From: Tritrichomonas foetus
Taxonomy: Eukaryota; Parabasalia; Tritrichomonadida; Tritrichomonadidae
Direction of reading: 5' to 3'
NCBI GenBank assembly: GCA_001839685.1
Contig: MLAK01000591.1
Coordinates: 31,487 to 95,486 of the forward strand
Length of the DNA stretch: 64,000 bases
Part shown: positions 2,349 through 33,300 of the stretch, in pieces
How the letters are laid out: each line of letters starts with the position of its first letter
Position numbering within the stretch: the first letter of the stretch is position 1
Made by a program: the position numbers and the translations under genes
Notes under the pieces: generated by a model
What the model was told of the DNA's origin: nothing
What the model saw: the letters and a program-made list of their open reading frames with translations, nothing else
Databases searched by the model: none

Positions 2349-5300
2349 TTACATAAAGAATTTCAATGAGTCTTCAAATTCTGGGAAGAACTCATTCTTC
2401 TGTTTAGGTTTGGGTTCTTTTTTATTTTTCGTTGTAGATTTTTTTTCACTACCCAAAAAGACTTTCAAAGTGCTGTTTTGGTTAGCTTCATAAGAAATTA
2501 TTGTATTATCATTTAACTGCTTCGAATTAATGAAAAAGAGAGAATTTTCAATAATTTCTTTGCTTGCAAATTCTATTTCTCCCAATCGTATTTTAATATG
2601 TGTTAAATTTTCTCCCATTACAATTCGGAGCAAAAACATATGAATTGGTGTTTTCATATCAATCTTTTTATTGGATTTATAAACGCTTGTCGTAAGTAAG
2701 AAGGAATTTGATCCAAGATATATTTGATCTTGAGGAATTTTTTCTACACGGAAAACTGTAGATTCATCGAAATAATCAGACTGATCAGGAACTTTGAGTA
2801 TTTCATCATTAATGTTTAGTAAAACTCTAATATGACCATCTAATACATTTAATTGATTAACATGTTGGAGAATGCATGAAATGTCTTCATCAAGTCTCAT
2901 TGGGATGCGAATTCGTTTTACAAAGTGAATAAGCGAGTCATAAACATCAATAACTCGAAATACCATCATTTTCAGCTGCTTTTCAGTATATCCCTGAATA
3001 ACATCAAAAAATAAACGAAGAGATTTATAAGCCGACACTTTTCTAAATTCTGAAACAAACAGATTTTTCAAAGTGATATCATTTCTTAAGTGATAGGGCA
3101 TAATTTCAGGCAGATCAGAATTAGTTTGCCTTCTAAAAACTTGAACTACTGTATTTGTCGTGGCATTTGTATTCAAATTAATGTTTGAATGTTGTTGTTC
3201 ATTGAGTGCAAACAGAATAAGTTGAGGTAGTTCAGTAACAATCATGGTTTCAGGTGCAACACAAGTAACTACGACAGTATTTGGTTCAGTCACTTGACAA
3301 AAATCAATAGCTAGTTGACATTTTTGTCTCTCAAGATATTCTTCCGCATTTTTATCACCATAGGGTCTCAACATTGAATAGTAATTAATACAAATATGAT
3401 GTTGAGTACAACTTTCAATCTTAAATGATGTTGGCATAAATGATTGATCATAGGGTTCAAATAAAATAGAAGATGAATCATTAATTTGATAATATAAAAG
3501 GCTTTGTTCAATATCTGTGATTTTTTTGGAAAATCCAAGACCATCATAATAAACGTTTACTGGTAGATCATTTGTTCCACCTAAAATGCCGTAAATCACA
3601 GGAAGTAACTGAGAAACTGGTTGATAAACATTAGCTAGAGTTGATCCAAGGAATTGGACCTGTGGTGTAGCACGACTGAAGAAGAACTTCAAAAAGACAA
3701 CAATGATATTTTTTTTACTGTTAATTAAACTTATCATTGGTTTCATATAATCAGTTACAAATTGAATGAAATAGGTATCATCTTTTGGAATTTTCCCTGG
3801 GCCATTTGGAAGGAGAAGAGTTGGCATATATAAAGTTGAGACTTTCCAAATTAGAATCCCATCAACTGGACGATCCAGAAAAGTAGAAACATCATTATAT
3901 AAATCATAAATTGTAGATTTCTCTGGAATTTCGATTTTTGGCGGGAAATTAATAAAATCATAATTATCTGCACCCATTAAAACCATTTGTCGATAACAAT
4001 CTTCAGTAAATAAAGAAATTGACCGACATGGTATTTCTTTTGGTGCTTGAGTTTTAAAAGGAATTGCATTCTTTAAAAGTTCAGAAACATGGGTTGGTAT
4101 TGATACTTCTGAAAAAATTTCAAATAGCTTAATATTTTGCACATATACCAGCATATACGCACTCGATGAAGTGCCGCCATAATTATCACTCACTGCATTT
4201 TTTTCTGAACATTGAGTTACATTTGAATCATTAAATTCGTACCATGATTCTTCAGGCGTTGGTTTTATATAAGCAAGATAGTGACCATTAGTAGTTGATC
4301 CACAATGCACCAAAACTGAACATAATGTATACTGTGCATTAGGAGTGGCTGAAAAAGCAGTTAAATCAAGATTGGAAGGAAATTCAAATCTATCATTCAC
4401 TTTTTCTTTATTTCTTGTTTTACTGTTATATATAAAACGTTGTAGATGAATGTTTAAGATCGGTGGAAGGCTAACAAAATAGGTTTTAACAAAAGCATCT
4501 TGTTTTCCCATTGGTGTCATATATTGATTATTCCCTTCGAGAATTTGGGGCTCAGTAAATTGTTTAAAAGAAGTATACAAATCTAAACAACCACGTACTT
4601 GCATTTGTAAATCATCAAAATCTTCATAATTTTGAGTCGAGTAATTAATATTCTTACATTGGATTAATTTACACCATTTTCCATAAAATAATGTTTTGTA
4701 ATTTTGTTTGATCGGTGATTCTTCAATAACCATATCTATTAATTTATTATAAAATTCTTGCGCGTCGTGTTGTTGAAATGTTCGAGCATCATTCCAGCCA
4801 AAAGCTTGAGTCAAACCTCTTGTTGAAACTGGTTTGTTTGAGCTTTGTAAAAACCCAAATAATCGTTGAAGTTCGGTGGTTATTCGGCCAGGTGATTGAG
4901 TAATATAAATATTATTTCGAAACACTGGCAAGTGAAAAAGTGATTGTAAAATACTATTCATATAACATGTCGAACCTTGATTGAATATTCCCGCATATTT
5001 CAAAGGCTTCAGAATTTTAGGAATAGAATTTGGCGAAAGCAAAGGTAAACCTATGGACTCAAATTGTGCATCACTAAATCGAATATCAATAACTAAATTT
5101 CCATCCCAACTATAGAATTCCAAATCAGATGAAGGAATCAAAGTTTCTATGATTGATTGCTGATCTGAAGACTTCAATAAAAATGGCGAATATATTGTAA
5201 TCGTTTTCAGCGGGTCTTGCGAATGCAATATCAGCTCGATGAAAAAAACTTGGTTGATTATGCTTTTTTCACGCGATTCTATACTTATTGTAAGGTATTG

Positions 5301-5492
5301 CGGCTGTGGCTGTTGAAATCGGAACTGATAAGTTGTGGAATCGAATTGTATGCTAAATCGTTTAGGAGCTGTCGTCTGGTAGTTTTCTATTGTCCAACGA
5401 GCGGATATGCAGTTACTGTTAGAATTGAATGCTAATGGTGGTGGTGTTGCTGGAGGTGCAAAACTCGGGAAATCGCCAAAAAAATCAAACAT
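2349..5492 (-). CDS. USP7/UBP12-like ubiquitin carboxyl-terminal hydrolase (peptidase C19)
   Basis: The protein is 1047 residues, close to USP7 (about 1100). The Cys box is NQGSTCYMNS with catalytic Cys176. A QQHDAQEF block follows near 240-247, as in USP7. The His box is GHYLAY with His404, followed by WYEFNDSNV, which supplies the Asn/Asp that completes the triad. Residues 30-145 look like a weak MATH-type beta domain (ARWTIENY at its start), the substrate-binding part of USP7. The C-terminal half holds ubiquitin-like domains of the USP7 ICP0-binding region, including a segment near 760-800. It should remove ubiquitin from nuclear or cytosolic substrates. All catalytic residues are present, so it is probably active. 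The start is an ATG at 5490-5492. Confidence 0.92.
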   Translation of the reverse strand: MFDFFGDFPSFAPPATPPPLAFNSNSNCISARWTIENYQTTAPKRFSIQFDSTTYQFRFQQPQPQYLTISIESREKSIINQVFFIELILHSQDPLKTITIYSPFLLKSSDQQSIIETLIPSSDLEFYSWDGNLVIDIRFSDAQFESIGLPLLSPNSIPKILKPLKYAGIFNQGSTCYMNSILQSLFHLPVFRNNIYITQSPGRITTELQRLFGFLQSSNKPVSTRGLTQAFGWNDARTFQQHDAQEFYNKLIDMVIEESPIKQNYKTLFYGKWCKLIQCKNINYSTQNYEDFDDLQMQVRGCLDLYTSFKQFTEPQILEGNNQYMTPMGKQDAFVKTYFVSLPPILNIHLQRFIYNSKTRNKEKVNDRFEFPSNLDLTAFSATPNAQYTLCSVLVHCGSTTNGHYLAYIKPTPEESWYEFNDSNVTQCSEKNAVSDNYGGTSSSAYMLVYVQNIKLFEIFSEVSIPTHVSELLKNAIPFKTQAPKEIPCRSISLFTEDCYRQMVLMGADNYDFINFPPKIEIPEKSTIYDLYNDVSTFLDRPVDGILIWKVSTLYMPTLLLPNGPGKIPKDDTYFIQFVTDYMKPMISLINSKKNIIVVFLKFFFSRATPQVQFLGSTLANVYQPVSQLLPVIYGILGGTNDLPVNVYYDGLGFSKKITDIEQSLLYYQINDSSSILFEPYDQSFMPTSFKIESCTQHHICINYYSMLRPYGDKNAEEYLERQKCQLAIDFCQVTEPNTVVVTCVAPETMIVTELPQLILFALNEQQHSNINLNTNATTNTVVQVFRRQTNSDLPEIMPYHLRNDITLKNLFVSEFRKVSAYKSLRLFFDVIQGYTEKQLKMMVFRVIDVYDSLIHFVKRIRIPMRLDEDISCILQHVNQLNVLDGHIRVLLNINDEILKVPDQSDYFDESTVFRVEKIPQDQIYLGSNSFLLTTSVYKSNKKIDMKTPIHMFLLRIVMGENLTHIKIRLGEIEFASKEIIENSLFFINSKQLNDNTIISYEANQNSTLKVFLGSEKKSTTKNKKEPKPKQKNEFFPEFEDSLKFFM

Positions 5493-9515: not shown

Positions 9516-11261
9516 TTATTGTGGTCGTTGGTTTTCAACTTGAACGAGTTCTTCAATGATATTCAAATTTCTTTGTAATGCCGTCAAAATCTTTTCTTCA
9601 AGCGCAGGAAAAACTTTAACACCTGCTTGAAAGACAGGCATAACAATCACTCTGAAATGAGTATTAATGAATGATGCCATTGAAGAATTCAATCTTCGAT
9701 CCATTGGTGCAGCAACTTTAAACCCAAGTCGTCTTTCAGTATCCCTTTGAAGGTATTGTTCATCACGCATTAAGTCATACCAGTAACCAGATACTTCCCA
9801 TGGCCTAATAGCAAATGCCAAATCACTCATAAGTACAATTAATGCAAGTGCATCAAATCTATCGACTTTATTATTCAAATCAAGTTTGCGTGATGCTAAT
9901 TTAGTTATGAACTTTTGAAGTTTCTTATAGTCTGTCTTTAAAATAGAATGAATCATGATTTGCCTTGAAGTAAGTAATTCGGCTTCTTGATTTGAAAAAG
10001 TAAAACAATCTTGAAGTAAATGTGATCCAACTGAACAAGAATTATTTTCAAGAATTGAACGATCATTATAAGTCATTGATAGATTTGAACTTGTTCGAAC
10101 TTGAAACATATTATTGCATCCAGGATGATCAATATCATGTAGTAATGCTGAGAGTGCAAGTGTGGCGATTTCAAAGTTTTCCAAAATGTTAGAATTCGCT
10201 TTATTTAAAATATCATTAAATGCGATAATAAATTGAACACTTTCGCAGGCTCTTCGAAAATTATGGAATGGGTTTCCACGGAACTTTTCAACACATTTCT
10301 TTATGAAATATTCAACTTCGCCTGGTTTTGAGTTAACATCTACACCAACTCGAGCAGCAGTGAGTAAATCATGGCATAAATTCATTAAAACTTTTTCATT
10401 GATTGACCACACATTAAAATCGAGAGAAAACATGGCGTCACCTAAATTTAATGGCTGTAAAGAAGGAACCATTGGTGCTGGTGCAGCCCTGTGCGATCGA
10501 ATCGCATTTACTGCTGTTGGAATAATCACTTTTGGTTGAGCTTTATTACTGACACCGAATTGAGTGGCAAAAAAGTCCTGCATTTTATCAGGAATCGCTG
10601 GACGCGCAACTGATGTGATTTCACCATTCTCAAACCCTTTGAGATTGACTATGACAGCTTGGATGGAAGCTACTGCTGCCGGTTGGACTCCACCACTTAC
10701 TAAAACAGCTTCAAGTGATTTCACTATTTCATTCAATGGCGTATTAAATGAATCAGAAAATGTTTGCTTTAATTCAGCGATTCGACGCGATATAACAGTT
10801 GATTCAACAATTTGATGTTGAATTTTAGCAGCTGCTGCATTTTGTCTTCTTTTGATCCAAACGTTGGCATAGATATTTTTCAGAACCTGTGGCGACAACG
10901 GTTTAATCATGTAATCGTCTGCACCTTTTGAAAGACAATCAAATACAATTTCGTATTGATCGTTGGAAGACATCATAACGATTGGGATTTGAGCAAATTT
11001 TGGATCTGATCGAGCGGCTGATAAAAACTGAGGTCCGTTCATGACTGGCATCATTACATCGCTTAAAATCAAATCGATTTTAACACCACTGTTTAAAACA
11101 TCGAGTGCTTCTTGGCCATTTTTCGCAACGAGAACCTGATAACCATCCTTCTCAAGGGATTTTTGAACAACGCTGAGCTGCATTGGATCATCGTCAACAG
11201 CAAGGATTTGAAGATCGTCTCGAGTGAATGGGAGAGAAATATTTGAAGAATCTTCAGTCAT
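9516..11261 (-). CDS. Receiver domain fused to a degraded cyclic-nucleotide phosphodiesterase domain (RegA-like architecture)
   Basis: Residues 16-132 are a response-regulator receiver with intact chemistry: the acidic cluster VDDDP (23-25), phospho-acceptor Asp68 in LILSDVMMP, Ser98/99 and Lys120 in IKPL. A helical linker (about 140-215) follows. A class I PDE catalytic domain occupies about 280-570, with HDIDHPGCNN (His375, Asp376), YNDRSILEN and a second metal-type Asp480 in MSDLAF. The layout matches Dictyostelium RegA. However, the family motif HNxxHA reads HNFRRA, so the Zn-binding His is Arg337. The purine-selecting Gln position near the end is Met528. The domain may therefore bind or scaffold rather than hydrolyse cAMP/cGMP. 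No histidine kinase is visible nearby. The start ATG is at 11259-11261. Confidence 0.88.
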   Translation of the reverse strand: MTEDSSNISLPFTRDDLQILAVDDDPMQLSVVQKSLEKDGYQVLVAKNGQEALDVLNSGVKIDLILSDVMMPVMNGPQFLSAARSDPKFAQIPIVMMSSNDQYEIVFDCLSKGADDYMIKPLSPQVLKNIYANVWIKRRQNAAAAKIQHQIVESTVISRRIAELKQTFSDSFNTPLNEIVKSLEAVLVSGGVQPAAVASIQAVIVNLKGFENGEITSVARPAIPDKMQDFFATQFGVSNKAQPKVIIPTAVNAIRSHRAAPAPMVPSLQPLNLGDAMFSLDFNVWSINEKVLMNLCHDLLTAARVGVDVNSKPGEVEYFIKKCVEKFRGNPFHNFRRACESVQFIIAFNDILNKANSNILENFEIATLALSALLHDIDHPGCNNMFQVRTSSNLSMTYNDRSILENNSCSVGSHLLQDCFTFSNQEAELLTSRQIMIHSILKTDYKKLQKFITKLASRKLDLNNKVDRFDALALIVLMSDLAFAIRPWEVSGYWYDLMRDEQYLQRDTERRLGFKVAAPMDRRLNSSMASFINTHFRVIVMPVFQAGVKVFPALEEKILTALQRNLNIIEELVQVENQRPQ

Positions 11262-13623: not shown

Positions 13624-13850
13624 TCATGTAAAAGTAATGGTATTGAGAGGCATTATATTCATTGGTTTATTTCCTCCGAAGATGCAGTTGATCCACTTAT
13701 TGAATGATCATGAGCCCCATCATCAGCAGTTTTGAATTGATGCAAAAGTGAAGTAACTCCTTTAGAATACATTTCATTAGATTTGTAATTTGTATATATT
13801 CTGTCATCTTCATTCCAATCTTTTTCTTCACGTAATTGACTCTCTTCTTT
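13624..13850 (-). pseudogene. Decayed C-terminal fragment of a fibre-tip (collar-like) gene
   Basis: On the minus strand a frame without a start encodes a segment that aligns with residues 320-365 of the gene at 16234-17409. Shared features are an Asp/Glu/Arg-rich stretch ending in RIYTNY (RCYTSS in the intact copy), LLHQF (LHHFL) and GAHDHSISG (GNHSHTISG). A one-base shift after the ISG motif then restores GGNKPMNIMPL in the next frame, matching GGNKEFNILPP. The final IKVYMW strand is lost and the frame stops at 13624. The upstream part is cut off by a TGA at 13851-13853. This is a relic of the same family as its two neighbours, on the same strand. Confidence 0.75.
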
Positions 13851-14146
13851 TCAATTAATTCACATTCATTATATTTGATATCCATCTCTCGAGAGAATAA
13901 TGTTGATCTTTCGTGAATAAGATTTCCAGTAACTAAAATAGTTAAATTTCCTATTAATAGTGAAATATGTCAATATTCCAGCAATAACTAATGCTATATA
14001 TCAATTTGTCTACGGGGGAAATGAATATATGAATGAATTGAAAATGAAATACCAATTAGGATTATTACTATGAATATAGGAGTACATCCAAATGAATAGG
14101 TACAAAAAATGTTGACTTTTAAGGATTTTGTTTTAATTATTATAAC

Positions 14147-15076
14147 TTATTTTATTCTCGTCCACACGAACACTTTAATGTATGGTGGTATCAAATTAAA
14201 TCTTTTATTTCCACCTGTTTCTTCGGTATTTCCTTGAACTTTATGTTGATGACCATCAACTCGATTTGTTTTAAATATATGTGTATGCATCCAATTGAAT
14301 ATTGGTCCATTCTGGTTGATACCAGTATCCACTCTTATAAAATTATCATTGCCAGCCACTGTACCAACTTTTTCCACATCCTTGAGTCGAAAATCACAAT
14401 ACCCCTCATGATTATGCTCACCATCAAGTGAAGTGCATAAATTATTGATTGCATGAAAATGAGGAGGAAGTTCATCGAGTGTCAAAAGATGGGTTTCCTT
14501 GCCTCCAATTTGTAATGACTCATTCATTGTTGAATAGTCACTAGCTGACATTAAGAAACGTCCTTGTAATGGATCCCATTTGGTACCTGGAAATAGTATC
14601 TCTGGATTGTCATTTTTTGCTGAAATGAAAAGAGAGCCAATTGGATACATTTTTTCATGTTGATCGTAAATTTCATTTTCTAATCTTGAGAATAAATAAA
14701 GAAGTGAAATGTGGCTAACATTGACATATGGAAAAAAATGAGGATTTTGAAATAATAGTCGAAGATTCGAAATTCCAAGTTTTTCTATTTTTACTTCTGA
14801 CATCAATAATTTGATTTCTTTGACTTTGTTGTGTCTCATGATAAAATTGAAGACTAAATTTTCATCAATGTTTCCAGCTCGATGAGTTATAATGTTATGC
14901 TGAATATTCAATTGGCTCTTTAATAATAATTCAACGGATTCCTCATCGTTCAAGATTTCATTCAAATTATTTGCAAGGATCGTCATTCCATGATGAACAT
15001 CAGATGAATCCTTATTCGGATTACTCTTCTTCAAGTTCTGGATGCGTGCCAAAAGTAGCTTTATTTCTCTAATCAT
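14147..15076 (-). CDS. Phage tail-collar/fibre-tip-like protein with HxH motifs, copy 1
   Basis: The protein is 309 residues. Residues 1-135 are a helical N-terminal domain shared with the gene at 16234, including LNIQHNIITHR (56-66). Residues 143-309 match the bacteriophage tail-collar/baseplate fold: YPIGSLFIS (144-152), then PGTKWDPLQGRFLMSA, GGKETHLLT, and a closing strand NLIPPYIKVFVW. Four HxH motifs (HFH 206, HNH 221, HTH 264, HQH 276) resemble those that coordinate iron or zinc along the trimer axis of T4 fibre tips. No signal peptide is seen. It is paired head-to-head with the U-box-ubiquitin gene at 15088, only 11 bases away. Relative to copy 2 it lacks the coiled coil. The start ATG is at 15074-15076. 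Confidence 0.8.
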   Translation of the reverse strand: MIREIKLLLARIQNLKKSNPNKDSSDVHHGMTILANNLNEILNDEESVELLLKSQLNIQHNIITHRAGNIDENLVFNFIMRHNKVKEIKLLMSEVKIEKLGISNLRLLFQNPHFFPYVNVSHISLLYLFSRLENEIYDQHEKMYPIGSLFISAKNDNPEILFPGTKWDPLQGRFLMSASDYSTMNESLQIGGKETHLLTLDELPPHFHAINNLCTSLDGEHNHEGYCDFRLKDVEKVGTVAGNDNFIRVDTGINQNGPIFNWMHTHIFKTNRVDGHQHKVQGNTEETGGNKRFNLIPPYIKVFVWTRIK

Positions 15077-15087
15077 TAAATGAAGTC

Positions 15088-15642
15088 ATGATGGACAGAT
15101 ATCTCGCTCTCTTTTTTTTATTGGTTTACATGAAGAATATTGTCAAAATAACTTTGATTTTATTCATTTCATTTTTTTCTTTACTTATAAGTGCTTTAAT
15201 ATCTGAGCTGCGATGTCCTTTGTCTGGCAAAATAATGCATGTTCCTATGATTGCTCCTGATGGTTACACTTATGATAAAGAAAGTTTACTGAATTATCGC
15301 AAAATGTATGGAGATATTTCCTCAACAACAGGAAATGCAATGAATTATGATGAAATACATGCAAATAATAGGGTCAAGATATTAGTCGATAAATTCAAAA
15401 ACGCTCATCCAGAGTATATGACCGATGCAGAAAAGAGAGAAATGGAAAAAGGTTTCCAATTATTTGTCAGAACAGTTCAGGGAAAGATGATAGCCATTAA
15501 TGGTGTTAATAATAAAATTACTATATTGGAATTGAAGAAAAAAGTTATGGATAAAGATGGTACTCCAGAAAATCAGCAAAGATTAATATTTGGTGGAAAG
15601 CAATTAGAAGATCATTATGATACTAATGCATTATGGCCTTAA
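15088..15642 (+). CDS. U-box-ubiquitin fusion protein, copy 1, frameshifted near its C-terminus
   Basis: As read, 184 residues. Residues 15-38 are strongly hydrophobic (MKNIVKITLILF onward) and could be a signal anchor. Residues 41-105 are a U-box (CPLSGKIM, then APDGYTYDKESLL). Residues 123 onward are ubiquitin-like: FQLFVRTVQGK, QQRLIFGGKQLED, with Lys at the K48 position and Ile at I44. The frame then stops early at 15640-15642. One base later in phase, the sequence continues as YGLKKEDTIDVSLRLKGG and stops at 15686-15688, exactly after the diglycine. The spacing to ubiquitin fits perfectly if a single T near 15631 is extra. It is either a recent pseudogene or a sequencing indel. It starts 11 bases from the divergent copy 1 fibre-tip gene; the second usable ATG is at 15130. 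Confidence 0.78.
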   Translation: MMDRYLALFFLLVYMKNIVKITLILFISFFSLLISALISELRCPLSGKIMHVPMIAPDGYTYDKESLLNYRKMYGDISSTTGNAMNYDEIHANNRVKILVDKFKNAHPEYMTDAEKREMEKGFQLFVRTVQGKMIAINGVNNKITILELKKKVMDKDGTPENQQRLIFGGKQLEDHYDTNALWP

Positions 15643-16233
15643 AAAAGAAGATACAATCGATGTAAGTTTAAGACTGAAAGGTGGTTAATTTGGTATAGAA
15701 AATTAATTTTTCTGATTTGATATCCTATTTTAGTAAATTCCTGTTCATAATATTGGACAAATCATATCTCAAATCTGAGAGACATTTTATCATGATTGTG
15801 ACTATTCACCAAAGTCAAATAAAGATCAAAAATACAACATAAACTAATTGTAGTTAATGAAGGGGAGACAAGATGAGTGAACATGGCAGAAGTATGAAAC
15901 AGCAAGATCGGTGTTAATGAATCGTTTCCTCCAATGGACAAATCACTTCACATTTGAATCATATTTCAAAATCTTTTTCTAATCTCAAAAACCATTTATT
16001 AGAAATATTGAACTCAACATTAAAACTATTATCTAAATAATTCAGAAATAATGTTTTCTTAAATATTTTTATAATTCATGACATGGAAAACATATACTTT
16101 ATATAATAAATAATGAGAATATGAATTGACAATATTTGGAAGCATATTCAGCTCATTTGCCTGTTTTATTACTCATCAATCGAAGAATTTGCATATTTAA
16201 TAAGAAAAAATTAGATGTGATTTATATAAAATC
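15643..16233. other. Gap between the two cassette copies
   Basis: The first 46 bases are the out-of-frame end of the ubiquitin-like domain. The rest is AT-rich and non-coding, and holds the convergent 3' ends. No insertion-sequence ends or target duplications are visible. Confidence 0.5.
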
Positions 16234-17409
16234 CTACTCTTTTCGAACCCACATATAAACTTTAATGTATGGTGGTAAAATATTGAATTCTTTATTTCCA
16301 CCTGCCATTTTCGTCCTTCCAGATATTGTATGACTGTGATTTCCTTTTGTGTTTGTAAGAAAATGATGCAAATGAGATGTTTTATGGGTATATTGAGGTG
16401 TTAAATCAGAAGATGTGTAACATCTATCTTCTCGTTTTTCATCAAAATCTATTTCATTTGCCCTCATGAATCTATGTTTGTTTCCAGGTGAAGTTATCCA
16501 GTATTTTAGTGAAAGAGGTTGCTGTTCTGTATATCCTTCATGCTGATGTTCTCCATCAGAAGATGTTTTTAAGTTTAATAGATGTTGATGCGCTGGTATT
16601 TCTTCTGGTGATAATACATGTGTTTTGCTACCACCTTCCTGGTATGATTCATTCATGTTTTGATAATCTTGCGCTGACATTAAGAAACGGTCTTTAATGG
16701 GTTTCCATTTTGTCCCCTCAAAGATTTTTACAGGATTAATGTTTACAGTAGAAATAAAAATGAATCCAATGGGATACCATGCATTTATATCCAATTTTGA
16801 TTTCATTTGAATAATATTTTCTTTCATTTTGGAGATTTGAGTTATATCTTGATTTATTTTCATTTGTTCCTCATATCGAGTATTACGATAATCATTAAAT
16901 GTGCTATTCATTTGATTTTGGATTTCTTTGATTCGAGTTATTTCTTGAGATAATTTGAAAATCTTTTTTTGGTACTGAGCTTGAATTTGTTCCAATTTAT
17001 GGTTAAATTCTGACTCGAGTTCTCTTTTTTGAGAAGCAAAGAGAGAAAGAGATATTTTATTAATTTTCACATATGGAGATAATCGAGGATCCTCAGTTAG
17101 ACAGAGAAAATTCTTGGGAGAAAGTCGTTCAAATTTTAAATCAGAAATCAATAATAGTGCTTCTTCTTCATCATGTTTCATAATGAACTCAAAAATGAGA
17201 TTTTCATCTTCATTTAATGGACGATGTGATATAATATTGTGCTGAATATTTAAATCCAGTTCGAATAATTTTTGATGTAATTCTTCATTTTCTAAAACAT
17301 CTTTTAAATCACAGCAAACCTTTTTTATTGCTTTATAAACGCTCTTACCAACATTGTTCCTTTGGAAATCTTTTAAATTTTGTAAGTGAAGCAATAAATC
17401 CGCATGCAT
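16234..17409 (-). CDS. Phage tail-collar/fibre-tip-like protein with coiled coil and HxH motifs, copy 2
   Basis: The protein is 391 residues and paralogous to the gene at 14147-15076. The N-terminal helical domain (1-124) includes LNIQHNIISHR (53-63). A coiled coil (about 125-206, rich in Glu, Lys, Gln and Ile heptads) is absent in copy 1 and fits a trimeric fibre stalk. The collar-type domain (211-391) has WYPIGFIFIS, EGTKWKPIKDRFLMSA, GGSKTHVLS and the final NILPPYIKVYMW. HxH motifs are at 274 (HQH), 288 (HQH), 346 (HLHH) and 358 (HSH). In T4 short and long tail-fibre tips such motifs from three chains bind metal ions, so a metal-stabilised trimer is inferred. It is divergent from the U-box-ubiquitin gene at 17554. 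The start ATG is at 17407-17409. Confidence 0.82.
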   Translation of the reverse strand: MHADLLLHLQNLKDFQRNNVGKSVYKAIKKVCCDLKDVLENEELHQKLFELDLNIQHNIISHRPLNEDENLIFEFIMKHDEEEALLLISDLKFERLSPKNFLCLTEDPRLSPYVKINKISLSLFASQKRELESEFNHKLEQIQAQYQKKIFKLSQEITRIKEIQNQMNSTFNDYRNTRYEEQMKINQDITQISKMKENIIQMKSKLDINAWYPIGFIFISTVNINPVKIFEGTKWKPIKDRFLMSAQDYQNMNESYQEGGSKTHVLSPEEIPAHQHLLNLKTSSDGEHQHEGYTEQQPLSLKYWITSPGNKHRFMRANEIDFDEKREDRCYTSSDLTPQYTHKTSHLHHFLTNTKGNHSHTISGRTKMAGGNKEFNILPPYIKVYMWVRKE

Positions 17410-17553
17410 ATGATCAAAACTAAATTAAGTGAAAAATCTTTGTCAAAAAAGCAACTCATATAATTGTCAAGAATGTTGCCATGAAAAAATATTAGATTTT
17501 GCCAGAAAGCATTCAATAATTACATTACATCACTTATTTGAATTAGCTTGAAA
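17410..17553. promoter_or_regulatory. Bidirectional promoter between fibre-tip and U-box-ubiquitin genes
   Basis: This 144-base gap separates two head-to-head starts. A TCACT match to the trichomonad initiator occurs on each strand at similar distance: plus strand, +1 at 17532, 22 bases before the ATG at 17554; minus strand, +1 at 17430, 21 bases before the ATG at 17409. This symmetry supports coordinated divergent transcription, although no expression data are available. Confidence 0.5.
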
Positions 17554-18018
17554 ATGACATACGATGACTTTGATGAAAATGATCTGTATTGTCCAATCTC
17601 CGGGGGAATAATGGAAGAACCTGTAATAGCCAATGATGGTATCACTTATGATCGAAGAAGTCTTGAGATGTTGAGAGATCAGAATGGTGGGGTATTACCT
17701 AACGGAACAAAAATTGATTGGGCTATAATAAAACCCTATGGAAGACTAAAAAAACAGATATTAGCACAAAGGCCCTTTTCTATATTTTTAAAGACACTAT
17801 TAGGGAAAGTTATCATTATCAGTGACCTCTGCACCAGTACCAAAATCCACCAATTAAAATGTAAGATACAAAATAAAGAAGGTATTCCTCCTGATCAACA
17901 AAGATTAATTTTTGGTTCTAGTCAATTAGAAGACCAAAATAAATTAGGAGACTATTCAATCCGAAAGAATTCTACTATTCATTTAGCTCTCCGCCTTCGT
18001 GGTGGATTCCATTTTTAA
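17554..18018 (+). CDS. U-box-ubiquitin fusion protein, copy 2 (intact)
   Basis: The protein is 154 residues. The U-box is at about 10-72 ([25 protein letters not shown], ending GRLKKQI), the fold that recruits an E2 enzyme. Ubiquitin-like residues 75-151 follow: [25 protein letters not shown] and HLALRLRGG, very close to ubiquitin itself. Lys positions equivalent to K6, K11, K27, K29, K33 and K63 are kept, but K48 is Ser123. The I44 patch (Ile119, His143) is kept. After the diglycine comes a three-residue tail (FHF), as in ubiquitin precursors that need a deubiquitinase to expose GG. So it could act as an E3, as a conjugated modifier carrying an E3 domain, or as a self-processed ubiquitin source. 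No hydrophobic N-terminus, unlike copy 1. The start is the ATG at 17554; two codons upstream is only TTG. Confidence 0.9.
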
Positions 18019-21025: not shown

Positions 21026-23308
21026 ATGTTTCTTTTCTCGATTCTTTTTGCCTTATCCCTTTCTCGCCAAGAGAATGTTCGTTTACCCCCTCGTAAGGTT
21101 ATATATTCCACCAAAGGAGACAATGGAATTGCCTGTGACATTTGCAAACAGGCTGTCAAATATATAGCCGACGCTTTAGCTGACAAAAAGGTTGAAGAAG
21201 AAATAATTGAAGCAATTGACGAACTTTGCAAACAATATCCATCACCGTATGATACAGAATGTCTTACAAAAGTCGCCATCTATGTCCCGTTAATAATTTC
21301 CTGGATCGAACAAGGTATTGAGCTTATCGACATTTGCACAATGACTCATTTGTGCTCTACAGTAGCTGGACAGCCACGTCCCGCTATGCGTCCAGCTATT
21401 ACCAAATATTCACCAAATGGATTAAGTTGCGATATGTGCACCAAAGCTGTTGAATATATCGGAAAACTTTTGGAAACGCAAATCGTCGAATCAGAAATCG
21501 CCAGACTCGTTAAACAATATTGCACCACATTCGAAACTCCATACTCCAGTCTTTGTAACGCTATTGTAGAATCCTCTATTCCATTGATTATCAGCTGGAT
21601 TGAAGCCGGACTTGTCGCCAGCGACATCTGCACAAAAATCGGATTTTGCGCATCTAACGAATCCCTACCAATCAATCACAAATATACAGACGCTGCAGTT
21701 CGAAGAGTTGTTACTGCTGCATTTCCAAAGAACGATAACGGTATCGGCTGCTTACTCTGCAACAGAATTGTTGAATATCTCGATAGCGTTCTTGATGATC
21801 CTCGCTTCTCTGGTTCAGTTGAGCGTCTCCTCGACCAATTCTGTGACAAACTTCCAGCCGCCTATGCGGCAGGGTGCCATGTCCTTGTCGATAATTTCAT
21901 CCCAATACTCTCCCAGTGGATCGAGCAAGGAATTGACTCTCTCCACATCTGCGAGAAAATTGGATTGTGTGATTCGGAAACGGTTAAGCGTATTGAACAC
22001 AAAAAATTGGCTCCATCAAATCAAAAAGCTTCAACACCAACCAAAGTCCAAATTCCAAACTGGCCAAAGAACGATAACGGTCTAGGATGCCTTCTTTGCA
22101 ATGAATTTGTTGCAAAGATTGATGAACTCCTCAACGATGAAAGATTCGATGGATCGCTCGAACGCTACCTCGATAAATTCTGCGATAATCTTCCAGTTGT
22201 CTATGCAGCTGGCTGCCATGCCCTTGTTGACAGCATGATTCCAGTCATTACCACCTTGATTGATGAAGAATTTGATAAACTTGAAATTTGCATCAAACTT
22301 GGATTATGCGAAAATACATCAACTGCAATTAGTGCAGTTAAAGCCCGCCTTCCACGCGCAGCTGTAGCCAAAAAATCTGTAGAAAAACTATATGACAGCG
22401 ATACCTGTACAATTTGCACAATCACAATAAACTTCATCGACACAAAGATGAAAGACGAACAAGTTCAAGACGAAATTATTGAAGCTGTTTATGGATTTTG
22501 TGGCACACTTTCATTCATTTATGATCCAATTTGTAAAATGATCGCATCAACCTATATTCCACTCATCATTAGACTCATCACAGATGGTGTTGAAACACTT
22601 GATATCTGTAACAAACTTGGATTCTGCACAAGCTCCGTTGTCGCCGAATTTAAGGCCAACTACAGAAAGCCACTTTACCTTCCAACAAAAACACTGAAAA
22701 TTAACAAACCATCACCAAATGGTCTCTGTGAAACTTGTAAAGAAACCATCCAAATGATTGAAGACCTTCTTGAAGACAAAAAAGTCGAAGAAGAAATTAT
22801 CTCAGTTTTGAAGCAATTTTGTGATACACTTCCTGAGGAATTAGTTGCTAGCTGTGATTCAATTGCTGATCAATATGTTCCACTTGTCATTAAGCTTATC
22901 GAATCAGGATTAGAAACATTAGATATCTGTGGAAAAATTGGCTTCTGTTCAACCAACCAAATATCATCTCAGAAAGCTTCTAAACGAGTTCCTATAAGAA
23001 AATATGTGAATCGTAAATCACTTCCACCATTAAAGAAGTATACATTTCCACAGAAGTATGATTCAAAGGTTGTTTGTGAACTTTGTAACCAGGTCTTCAA
23101 ATATGTCGAAGAACTGCTCAATGATCATCACGTCCAAGAAGAAATTGCCAATCAAGTGATGAAATTATGCGACTTTGTTCCACCACCAGAGCTCCTCCAG
23201 GGCTACTGCAAGGACCTCGTAAGGGAGTACGTCCCTCTCGGTGTCCAGTACATCGCGGCTGGAATCGAAGCGGCCGATGTGTGCAAAGCGATCGGTTTTT
23301 GCGAATAA
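21026..23308 (+). CDS. Secreted protein with seven saposin B-type domains
   Basis: The protein is 760 residues. The N-terminus MFLFSILFALSLS is a short signal peptide. Seven saposin-like units follow at roughly 100-residue intervals. Each opens with a CxxC (CDIC, CDMC, CLLC, CLLC, CTIC, CETC, CELC) and closes with a C.k.GfC pattern (for example DICTKIGFC, DICNKLGFC, DVCKAIGFC), with two further Cys between, which gives the six-Cys saposin fold. Units 3 and 4 share GCLLCN and are the closest pair. Linkers of 15-30 residues are basic and could be cleaved, as in prosaposin. Saposin-like proteins bind lipids, and some from amoebae and trichomonads disrupt membranes. Which applies here cannot be told. 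Codon use is richer in C and G than in neighbours, suggesting strong expression. The stop is followed by TAATAATAAA. Confidence 0.92.
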   Translation: MFLFSILFALSLSRQENVRLPPRKVIYSTKGDNGIACDICKQAVKYIADALADKKVEEEIIEAIDELCKQYPSPYDTECLTKVAIYVPLIISWIEQGIELIDICTMTHLCSTVAGQPRPAMRPAITKYSPNGLSCDMCTKAVEYIGKLLETQIVESEIARLVKQYCTTFETPYSSLCNAIVESSIPLIISWIEAGLVASDICTKIGFCASNESLPINHKYTDAAVRRVVTAAFPKNDNGIGCLLCNRIVEYLDSVLDDPRFSGSVERLLDQFCDKLPAAYAAGCHVLVDNFIPILSQWIEQGIDSLHICEKIGLCDSETVKRIEHKKLAPSNQKASTPTKVQIPNWPKNDNGLGCLLCNEFVAKIDELLNDERFDGSLERYLDKFCDNLPVVYAAGCHALVDSMIPVITTLIDEEFDKLEICIKLGLCENTSTAISAVKARLPRAAVAKKSVEKLYDSDTCTICTITINFIDTKMKDEQVQDEIIEAVYGFCGTLSFIYDPICKMIASTYIPLIIRLITDGVETLDICNKLGFCTSSVVAEFKANYRKPLYLPTKTLKINKPSPNGLCETCKETIQMIEDLLEDKKVEEEIISVLKQFCDTLPEELVASCDSIADQYVPLVIKLIESGLETLDICGKIGFCSTNQISSQKASKRVPIRKYVNRKSLPPLKKYTFPQKYDSKVVCELCNQVFKYVEELLNDHHVQEEIANQVMKLCDFVPPPELLQGYCKDLVREYVPLGVQYIAAGIEAADVCKAIGFCE

Positions 23309-30368: not shown

Positions 30369-33300
30369 ATGAATGATTTCGATCGATGGAGATCGGATTT
30401 CGTTTCTTCTCTCGATCTAAACTATAATTTCAATGAACATATCGAAACGTGCGAGCAATATATCGAAGAAATCATTCAATATAATATTATTAAATATGTC
30501 GGCCCCGAGAAAACCAATTCATTTCTTACAGAAACATTAAAGTTTGCCATAGATCAAATAATGAATTTTCGAATTAATAATTCAAATCGACTTAAATGTG
30601 GCATTTTAATTCATTTTTTGAAGCTCACAACAGTTTTAATTCCTTATTCTTTTTTGAATGACATATTTGATTTATTTCCAATTTTAGAATCAATTCTCGA
30701 TTCTACTCATCCATTTTATCAATCATTAAAAACTGGTAATAATACTATTCAGCAATTAAATGTTATCAAACAATATATTGTTAGTCATGAAATGCTGGCT
30801 TTAATGGCCACAAGAATACAAAAAAATGAAGAAACACCAATCACTGCAACACATTTTATCTTTTTCTTCAATCTTTATTCAATTTTGTCAGATTTAATGA
30901 ATTCTAACACTAAAAGTTCACTTTTATTTACAATTTTTCCTGTTTTCTCTGAATTTATTAATGATATTTCAAATTATGACATTAAAGACATTAATGCAGA
31001 GGAAGTAGAATTATTATTTAATTCTGCTATCAAAATTCTAATTGCCACCGATGAATTCTCAGATGAAATTTAATCATCTATAGTTGAATTTCCAATGCAA
31101 ATGTTTCAACGCGACTCTTTGGAGTTCCAAATGCTCGGTATTCGAATTTTCTCACAGTTTTTAGAAGCTCCCAATCATATAACTCAAGAATTTTTCACAA
31201 TTTTATCAAATGATCTATTTGTTACAAAAATCCTGACACAGGATTGTCACCAAGAAATTGTAAATCAAATGATTCCTATCATCATGAAAATGGCGAGCGT
31301 TAATTTAATAACACCTAAAGAGCTTTCAAACATATGGAATAATACATTTTCTCTTGAAAGTCTTGAGAAAAAGCTTTTACAAAATACAGTCTCTGATATT
31401 TTAATTTCGATGCCTTTTGAAAAGGTGAAAGTATTCTTTAGTTCAATTTTTGAATCACCTGATCAAACAACAGATTTCTTTCTTGATGTATCAAACATTG
31501 TTGTTAATTTTTTTTCAAGTAGAAAATCTGCTCCATCTGATATTGTTTCATTTGTTTTTTCATTAATTTTTGAGTATCCACATAATTCAAAAAAAGCAAA
31601 CACTGTGATAAAAAACCTCAGTAAACTTTATTCAAATGAAAATTCGAAAATATTCCGCGAAAAAATCATTGAAATAGCCAAAAACACACTCAAAAAACAT
31701 TACTCTGATTTTGTAATCCAACTTCTCATTAACATTCTAAATGACTCGTCAGTTAATTATTCAAATAATTTACCACCTAGCGCTGGAAGATGTTTGGATG
31801 AAAGCTTTATTTTGATAATCGAAGGTTTTATTTCAAGTAATACTGAAACTCAATCAATTTTACCTTTATATTCTATCTTACTATGCTATTATCATAAAAC
31901 AATTAATTCAAATATAATGAAAAAAATATTAGAGAATCCCAATGATGCAACATGGGACTTTTTGATTCAATTACTTGAAAAAACAAGATTAGATGGTTTT
32001 GATCTTGATTCTATAGGAGTAATTTCCGAATTTATTCTTCAATATAATCATTTTGAAAGTGATTTATATCTATATTTTCTTAAACTATTCATTTTATTCA
32101 ATAATATTCGATGTAAAATGATACGTTCATTAGGAGACATATCAAGTAATTTACCTATACCAAAAAGATTTGACGTTTATCAAATACCACTTTTGGGACA
32201 AGAAGTCATCATTAAAGTCATTCTAGAAGCAAAATCTGACCAAATTGCATATCAGGCATGTGAAATATTTCTTTTCTTTTTCAATCAACTTCGTGTCCAT
32301 GAAGAAGTTCTTTCAATCATTCAAAATTTATATGATAATTCGAAAAATGATCAACAATTTATGAGATCCATTTTTTTAATGAAAGAATATTGTCAAAAAT
32401 TCGATGATGAACAAAAAATGATAGTAATTTCACATAAGACAATTTTATCAACAATCCAGGATTCGATAAATAATATTGTAATACAGGTGAAAACACCAGA
32501 TAATAATGAAGTCCGACTTGAAATTCAAGAAGGATCAAGAGCTAATAAAATTTTAGTAATCATCGCTCCCTATTTACCGAAGTCCATCAAAAATTATACT
32601 ATTGAATTTGAAAATAAGACAATCTCACCCACTAGTGTCATAAATGAATCATTTTCAAAATCACCTTTATTAATTATTGAAAAAAGACAATCTACACCAG
32701 GATTCACATCTGATTGCCTTCCTTCTGAAATTTTAGACCAGTGCCAGTTTCCTCACATTCTTTTTGACAATTTAAACCGTCATATTGATCAGAAAATAAT
32801 CCAAAGCATAGACAACTCGATTGACCATAGTGACTACTCAGATAAGCTTAATGAAAAGATTTTCGAATTATTATCATATTTGCCGAGCGATGATGTACTT
32901 TTTGAATTGACAAATAACATTGAAGAAACTCAAAAACTACTTTATAGTGTTTGCAACAAATATTCACTGAGGTATTTCTTACAAATTATTTTCTGGAGAA
33001 TGAAATGCCCAAAATATGCAAAAATGTATTCAACTTTTTTAATATCATACTTCTTGAATATTTTCAGAGATAGAAACTCAGCAATTTATTTAGCAGACGA
33101 ATTAATCTTAATAATTGGGTTGATTTTCGACAATTCGACATCTAATAATGAATTATTGTTACCAATGTTTGAATTATTATCTTATCAAACAGTTTCTCCT
33201 GGTACAAAAATCAACATTGCACGAATCTTTCAAAAAATTGATAATTTCAAAATATCAGAAATTATTTATTTTGATGATTTGAAACTACTGCATAAAGTTC

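Follow-up and report, generated by a model that had tools for sequence, protein, structure and literature searches.

A phage-type tail-tip protein beside a U-box–ubiquitin fusion in a tandemly duplicated gene pair of Tritrichomonas foetus

Introduction

Why does a gene bearing the tip of a bacteriophage tail fibre stand head to head, twice in a row, with a gene that joins a ubiquitin-ligase domain to ubiquitin? The question arises in Tritrichomonas foetus, a parasite of cattle. The 64,000 nucleotides (nt) analysed here, called the window, are positions 31,487 to 95,486 of contig MLAK01000591.1 (GenBank assembly GCA_001839685.1), in which the two tip genes are named F1 and F2 and the two fusion genes U1 and U2. 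A sequence-only reading had described them as a duplicated, co-regulated cassette whose products may work together. The simplest account is instead a laterally acquired tip in a lineage-specific protein, whose gene was duplicated in tandem together with its U neighbour as a two-gene block, and we give this account as a whole a probability of about 0.6. At this locus, the binding domain of a bacteriophage tail tip appears to have entered a nuclear gene of a eukaryote and to have been combined there with a new stalk and an N-terminal domain private to this genome; in the adjoining gene, a ubiquitin-ligase domain stands ahead of a ubiquitin with K48 replaced.

Lateral acquisition has precedents in this lineage, Trichomonas and its relatives having gained cell-wall enzymes and antimicrobial peptides in this way according to one report (PMC12612818; see also PMC6299479). 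As in those cases, a prokaryote-type domain is built into a parabasalid genome, here a fibre tip instead. A draft genome of T. foetus strain K is available (PMC5399258), and a later assembly of the species reaches 148.7 Mb (PMC11415386). The words “phage”, “lateral” and “ubiquitin” do not occur in the main text of the latter paper, and neither a fibre-tip nor a U-box–ubiquitin gene was found described for trichomonads in the open-licence literature, covered mostly by titles and the first part of abstracts. The genome searched in the present work was a 63.7-Mb assembly of 1064 contigs, in which the window falls within contig C201. As this assembly is partial compared with the 148.7 Mb, copy counts given below are lower bounds.

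Results and Discussion

A phage-type tail tip in the F genes

The two F genes are laid out as follows (aa, amino acids):

14147–15076, minus strand: F1, open frame of 309 aa; N-terminal domain (about 1–125), short linker, phage-type Gp10_C tip (142–308) with four HxH motifs
16234–17409, minus strand: F2, open frame of 391 aa; N-terminal domain (about 1–125), coiled coil (124–205), phage-type Gp10_C tip (209–389) with four HxH motifs

The Gp10_C profile (PF21939) reaches 68 bits in F1 and 68 bits in F2 for a curated Pfam cut-off of 27, so that the fibre-tip proteins proposed from the sequence alone are found exactly where they had been placed. Both also match PHROG tail proteins (best E 2e-23). 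With the phage Gp10_C tail-tip and baseplate proteins, such as T4 gp10 and long tail fibres, the F proteins share the domain profile, the HxH motifs and the frame YP[IV]G ... W ... GG ... PPY..V..W. When a profile of 34 sequences was compared with solved structures, the long tail fibre 8kec (6e-8), 7z47 (8e-5) and T4 gp10 (2fkk, 0.0014) were retrieved; T4 gp10 ranked first in the structural comparison, in which the match spans 48 residues only. A tblastn search returned 196 phage records, the best 30 of these 196 being 26.6–30.4% identical, and 382 IMG/VR stretches encode relatives, of which 80 were kept. From such similarities it is natural to infer that the tip may have been gained laterally, from a phage or a prophage. 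Unlike the phage proteins, F is carried by a eukaryotic nuclear gene and possesses a private N-terminal domain and, in F2, a coiled coil.

This architecture was met in no other protein when 5.8 billion proteins were searched with the profile of F1 and F2. Three proteins were obtained at E <= 0.001, namely F1, F2 and a phage-tail-fibre-like protein; such a search reaches only relatives with common short exact words. The tip region alone had low sensitivity against the protein database, since among 57 candidates F2 alone was returned and F1 was missed. In the T. foetus assembly, only F1, F2 and one probable relic were seen to contain the N-terminal domain. A BACK domain was considered as its identity and is not claimed. 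With a BACK-like profile of 29 of the 30 family members fetched, F2 scored 11.4 bits, a value that the highest-scoring of 1000 shuffles also reached, and F1 9.6 bits, which at least 3 shuffles exceeded; the comparison of the F N-terminal domain with the BACK-like family gave an hhalign probability of 14%, and reciprocal genome searches met at E ~0.08. The search with the BACK-like family itself gave 110 matches at E <= 0.1, F2 among them. This large family (L118–L147 and others, G000) is an observation in its own right, an F5/8-type C-terminal part being visible in the members read, with both domains named by eye.

The four HxH motifs of F1 and the four of F2 align one to one and are collinear. 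In phage relatives, HxH pairs have a metal-binding role. The differences between F1 and F2 at codon positions 1/2/3 amount to 0.41/0.30/0.58 over 298 codons, and this smaller divergence at positions 1 and 2 than at position 3 is a coding pattern. The additional helix of F2 (124–205), a long coiled coil that F1 does not have, is predicted with a block-mean pLDDT (predicted local distance difference test) of 80–92 across residues 131–200, and its heptad pattern was reached in 1 of 2000 shuffled sequences. Inspection by eye shows no obvious signal peptide in the F product, which would most likely be an intracellular homotrimer with the tip as its binding head. By analogy with the phage proteins, we infer trimerisation of F and metal binding by the HxH motifs. 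Under this scheme F2 would trimerise through the predicted stalk and the tip, its HxH pairs would hold metal, and a ligand would be bound inside the cell.

A U-box ahead of ubiquitin in the U genes

The plus strand carries the partners of the F genes:

15088–15642, plus strand: U1, hydrophobic N-terminal stretch, U-box (40–107), partial ubiquitin (125–176)
15643–15688, plus strand: out-of-frame remainder of the U1 ubiquitin (three frames compared separately)
17554–18018, plus strand: U2, intact, 154 aa counted from the ATG; U-box match at residues 11–45, complete ubiquitin (about 76–151) ending RLRGG, three-residue tail

The proposed family is borne out, as the U-box profile scores 34.3 bits in U1 and 27.1 bits in U2 for a Pfam cut-off of 21.4, the match of U2 covering model positions 5–39 of 73 only, with a divergent second half. 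Known U-box E3 ligases include CHIP, LubX and the U-box proteins of plants. Of the solved structures, LubX scores highest with U1 as well as with U2, and the U1 U-box aligns with CHIP over 61 residues. Unlike these ligases, the U proteins are very small and the partner domain is ubiquitin instead of a substrate-binding domain. The ubiquitin of U2 is identical to native T. foetus ubiquitin at 47 of 74 aligned residues. It retains K6, L8, K11, K27, K29, K33, R42, I44, K63, H68, R72, R74, G75 and G76, which are needed for activation, conjugation and chain building, and carries the substitutions K48 to S and V70 to A. U2 is a separate gene that joins a U-box to a ubiquitin still conjugation-like, and its product presumably acts in the ubiquitin system. 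Between U1 and U2, differences at codon positions 1/2/3 are 0.42/0.37/0.57 (119 codons), again lower at positions 1 and 2 than at position 3, which is a coding pattern.

For U1, which the sequence-only reading had extended from 15088 to 15688, the start stands and the end does not. The in-frame ubiquitin comprises the first 51 profile positions, the frame stopping at 15642 and the rest up to 15688 lying in another frame. U1 is frameshifted as assembled, and its ubiquitin is consequently left without an in-frame diglycine end. The frame also opens with a hydrophobic stretch (15088–15195, plus strand) that is absent from U2, as judged by eye. It may serve as a membrane anchor or reflect decay of the gene, and such a start would fit poorly with a cytosolic ligase.

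Other ubiquitin fusions are known, such as those with ribosomal proteins and those of algae, a zinc finger protein being the partner in one case from chlorarachniophytes (PMC11354881); in these, as in U, ubiquitin is translated within the fusion. Unlike the fusions in the available part of that review, the U ubiquitin is C-terminal, behind the U-box, and K48 is replaced in U2; no U-box–ubiquitin fusion is described in that part. When the protein database was searched with the two U proteins, polyubiquitin dominated the result (7956 matches out of 7959 scored candidates), and among the 120 matches listed a U-box occurred only in U1, a result that leaves such fusions in other genomes possible. 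In the T. foetus assembly, 13 U-box matches and 32 U2 matches (mostly ubiquitin) were obtained, which are co-located at U1 and U2 only; this assembly, a partial one, yielded no third fusion. Separately, a decayed ubiquitin copy with stops is present on contig C503 (L028:4712–4936), with no U-box match nearby.

A tandem duplication and scattered relics

The head-to-head pair is present twice, side by side, with start codons as close as the sequence-only reading had reported, and the initiator-like sites that it had noted about 21 nt from the ATGs of the second copy are indeed there. TCAYW is the initiator consensus.

15077–15087: F1–U1 gap, 11 nt between start codons; TCAYW 5 nt (F1) and 13 nt (U1) from the ATGs
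17410–17553: F2–U2 gap, 144 nt between start codons; TCAYW 21 nt (F2) and 22 nt (U2) from the ATGs

That the pair was duplicated, as had been proposed, is reflected at the protein level (44% identity between F1 and F2, 40% between U1 and U2, by alignment) and in the DNA repeats that remain. One repeat lies at the 3' ends of the F genes (80 nt, 74% identity, spacing 2087 nt) and another within the U genes (64 nt, 77% identity, spacing 2322 nt), besides four blastn pieces. Since protein identity is 40–45%, the duplication would have occurred long ago.

Further copies of F parts are decayed:

13648–13820, minus strand: third, F2-like tip relic in two frames; no N-terminal domain or U partner of its own found
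Contig C202, about 88615–89124: tip relic with stops; a further weak fragment at about 88308–88442
Contig C142, 7419–7673: tip relic
Contig C142, 1876–2139: probable relic of the N-terminal domain, with stops (E 0.009 genome-wide)

The first of these corresponds to the decayed third fibre-tip copy of the sequence-only reading, now seen to be a tip-only relic. A match on contig C385 (E 0.013 in the F2 search), similar in strength to the C142 N-terminal relic, sits within an open frame that is long and unrelated. Around the relics of C202 and C142, no match to U1 or U2 was better than E 1.5, a chance level. The three tip relics and the long insert of F2 have a CYT, CYK or IYT stretch in common, F1 being without the insert; F2 may hence represent the more ancient tip.

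From these data, the following course of events can be proposed. The T. foetus lineage would have acquired a phage-type tail-tip domain by lateral transfer, and the tip would have been joined to an N-terminal domain seen in this genome alone, to which F2 adds a predicted coiled-coil stalk. The F–U block would then have been duplicated in tandem, after which one U copy was broken and other F copies decayed. The co-location of F and U would follow from the duplication of a single block.

The remains of an integrated virus or mobile element carrying both a fibre and a ubiquitin gene, be it a giant virus, a virophage or a Maverick-like element, could also place a tail-tip gene next to a ubiquitin-system gene and leave decayed tips at other places. 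We consider this improbable. Unlike in phage loci, the proteins scanned in the window included no further recognisable phage structural protein, nor was any viral gene seen besides F1 and F2 in the 15 proteins submitted to Pfam out of 36 open reading frames (ORFs) of >=100 aa. In viral_contigs, 16 stretches matched a U-box–ubiquitin pattern and none was confirmed as a relative, few peptide patterns being used, and the full-length F1/F2 pattern set, whose patterns are all N-terminal, found no relative either. Besides, the copies in the genome are few, a handful.

Is the gene pair a functional system?

The cassette hypothesis holds that F is a trimeric target binder and U2 its ubiquitin-side partner, both expressed from a two-way promoter, with U2 marking or limiting F or the target of F. 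In its favour, both copies keep the head-to-head order, coding constraint is seen in both families, and shared transcription of F and U is plausible from the short divergent gaps, which are the two smallest in the window. TCAYW lies within 40 nt of the start in 4 of 4 F and U genes, compared with 9 of the 26 remaining ORFs and 1166 of 4000 random 40-mers; because the motif is also common near other ORFs and in random sequence, the sites alone are modest evidence. Divergent neighbours are moreover common in the window, where the 29 adjacent pairs (ATG-initiated ORFs >=100 aa, overlaps removed) comprise 10 divergent, 10 convergent and 9 tandem ones.

In this genome, the F–U neighbourhood was found as one tandem array only, with no F–U pair at independent loci; other parabasalid genomes were covered through the protein database alone. 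In the stretches searched, the F relics stand without a U gene of their own. The database search, limited to relatives with common short exact words, showed the F architecture nowhere else, and U1 is broken, as assembled, while F1 is still open. As far as one partial genome shows, this evidence points to local tandem duplication. The F–U gene pair is real and unusual, and is known from this array only; its distribution does not favour a joint system, and the data lend no support to a conserved F–U system. A joint function of F and U, and with it the cassette, seems rather unlikely to us. An even bolder version would make U2 a conjugatable ligase, i.e., a U-box carried on an activatable ubiquitin, which once attached as a tag would recruit an E2 and build a chain through lysines other than the lost K48, while F, a metal-knit trimeric tip binder under the same promoter, would pick the target, for example foreign surface structures in the cytosol. 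This version is a highly speculative one, which we regard as very improbable.

Several points weigh against tandem duplication of a lateral gene as a sufficient account. At only 44% identity, F1 and F2 both still have open frames and the full set of four HxH motifs, and the F1–U1 and F2–U2 gaps are the extreme lower two of the 10 divergent gaps. A linked F–U order kept for so long could mean selection for the pair. Copies may be missed, the assembly being partial and the genome searches scoring best candidates only, and relatives with introns or strong divergence would escape these searches. The second-position G+C of F1, F2 and U1 (0.27–0.28) is under that of six neighbours (0.32–0.40).

Genomic surroundings

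A phage-like tip domain could also result from an assembly chimera or from bacterial or phage contamination. This appears extremely unlikely, as the tip shares one reading frame with a domain that was not found in the phage contigs searched (with few N-terminal patterns), tip relics are present on two further contigs, and the third-position G+C of F1, F2, U1 and U2 (0.22–0.27) falls inside the range of six neighbours (0.18–0.36). The contig is 95 kb long with eukaryotic genes on either side. The Pfam scan of neighbours (nine ORFs, two without a match) places the locus among genes for a USP-type ubiquitin hydrolase, CAP, a response-regulator/phosphodiesterase, saposin repeats, DENN and NOT2/3/5. 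The product of the IMPDH gene is identical at 503 of 503 residues to PDB 1ak5, which we take to be the T. foetus enzyme. The sequence-only reading had guessed a parabasalid, and this is correct.

Three of these neighbours can be mentioned for themselves. The USP-type ubiquitin hydrolase (2349–5492, minus strand), with a USP7-like C-terminal match, lies about 9 kb from F1/U1. A response-regulator receiver is fused to a cyclic-nucleotide phosphodiesterase at 9516–11261 (minus strand), and a repeated saposin B protein with 7 SapB_1 stretches is encoded at 21026–23308 (plus strand).

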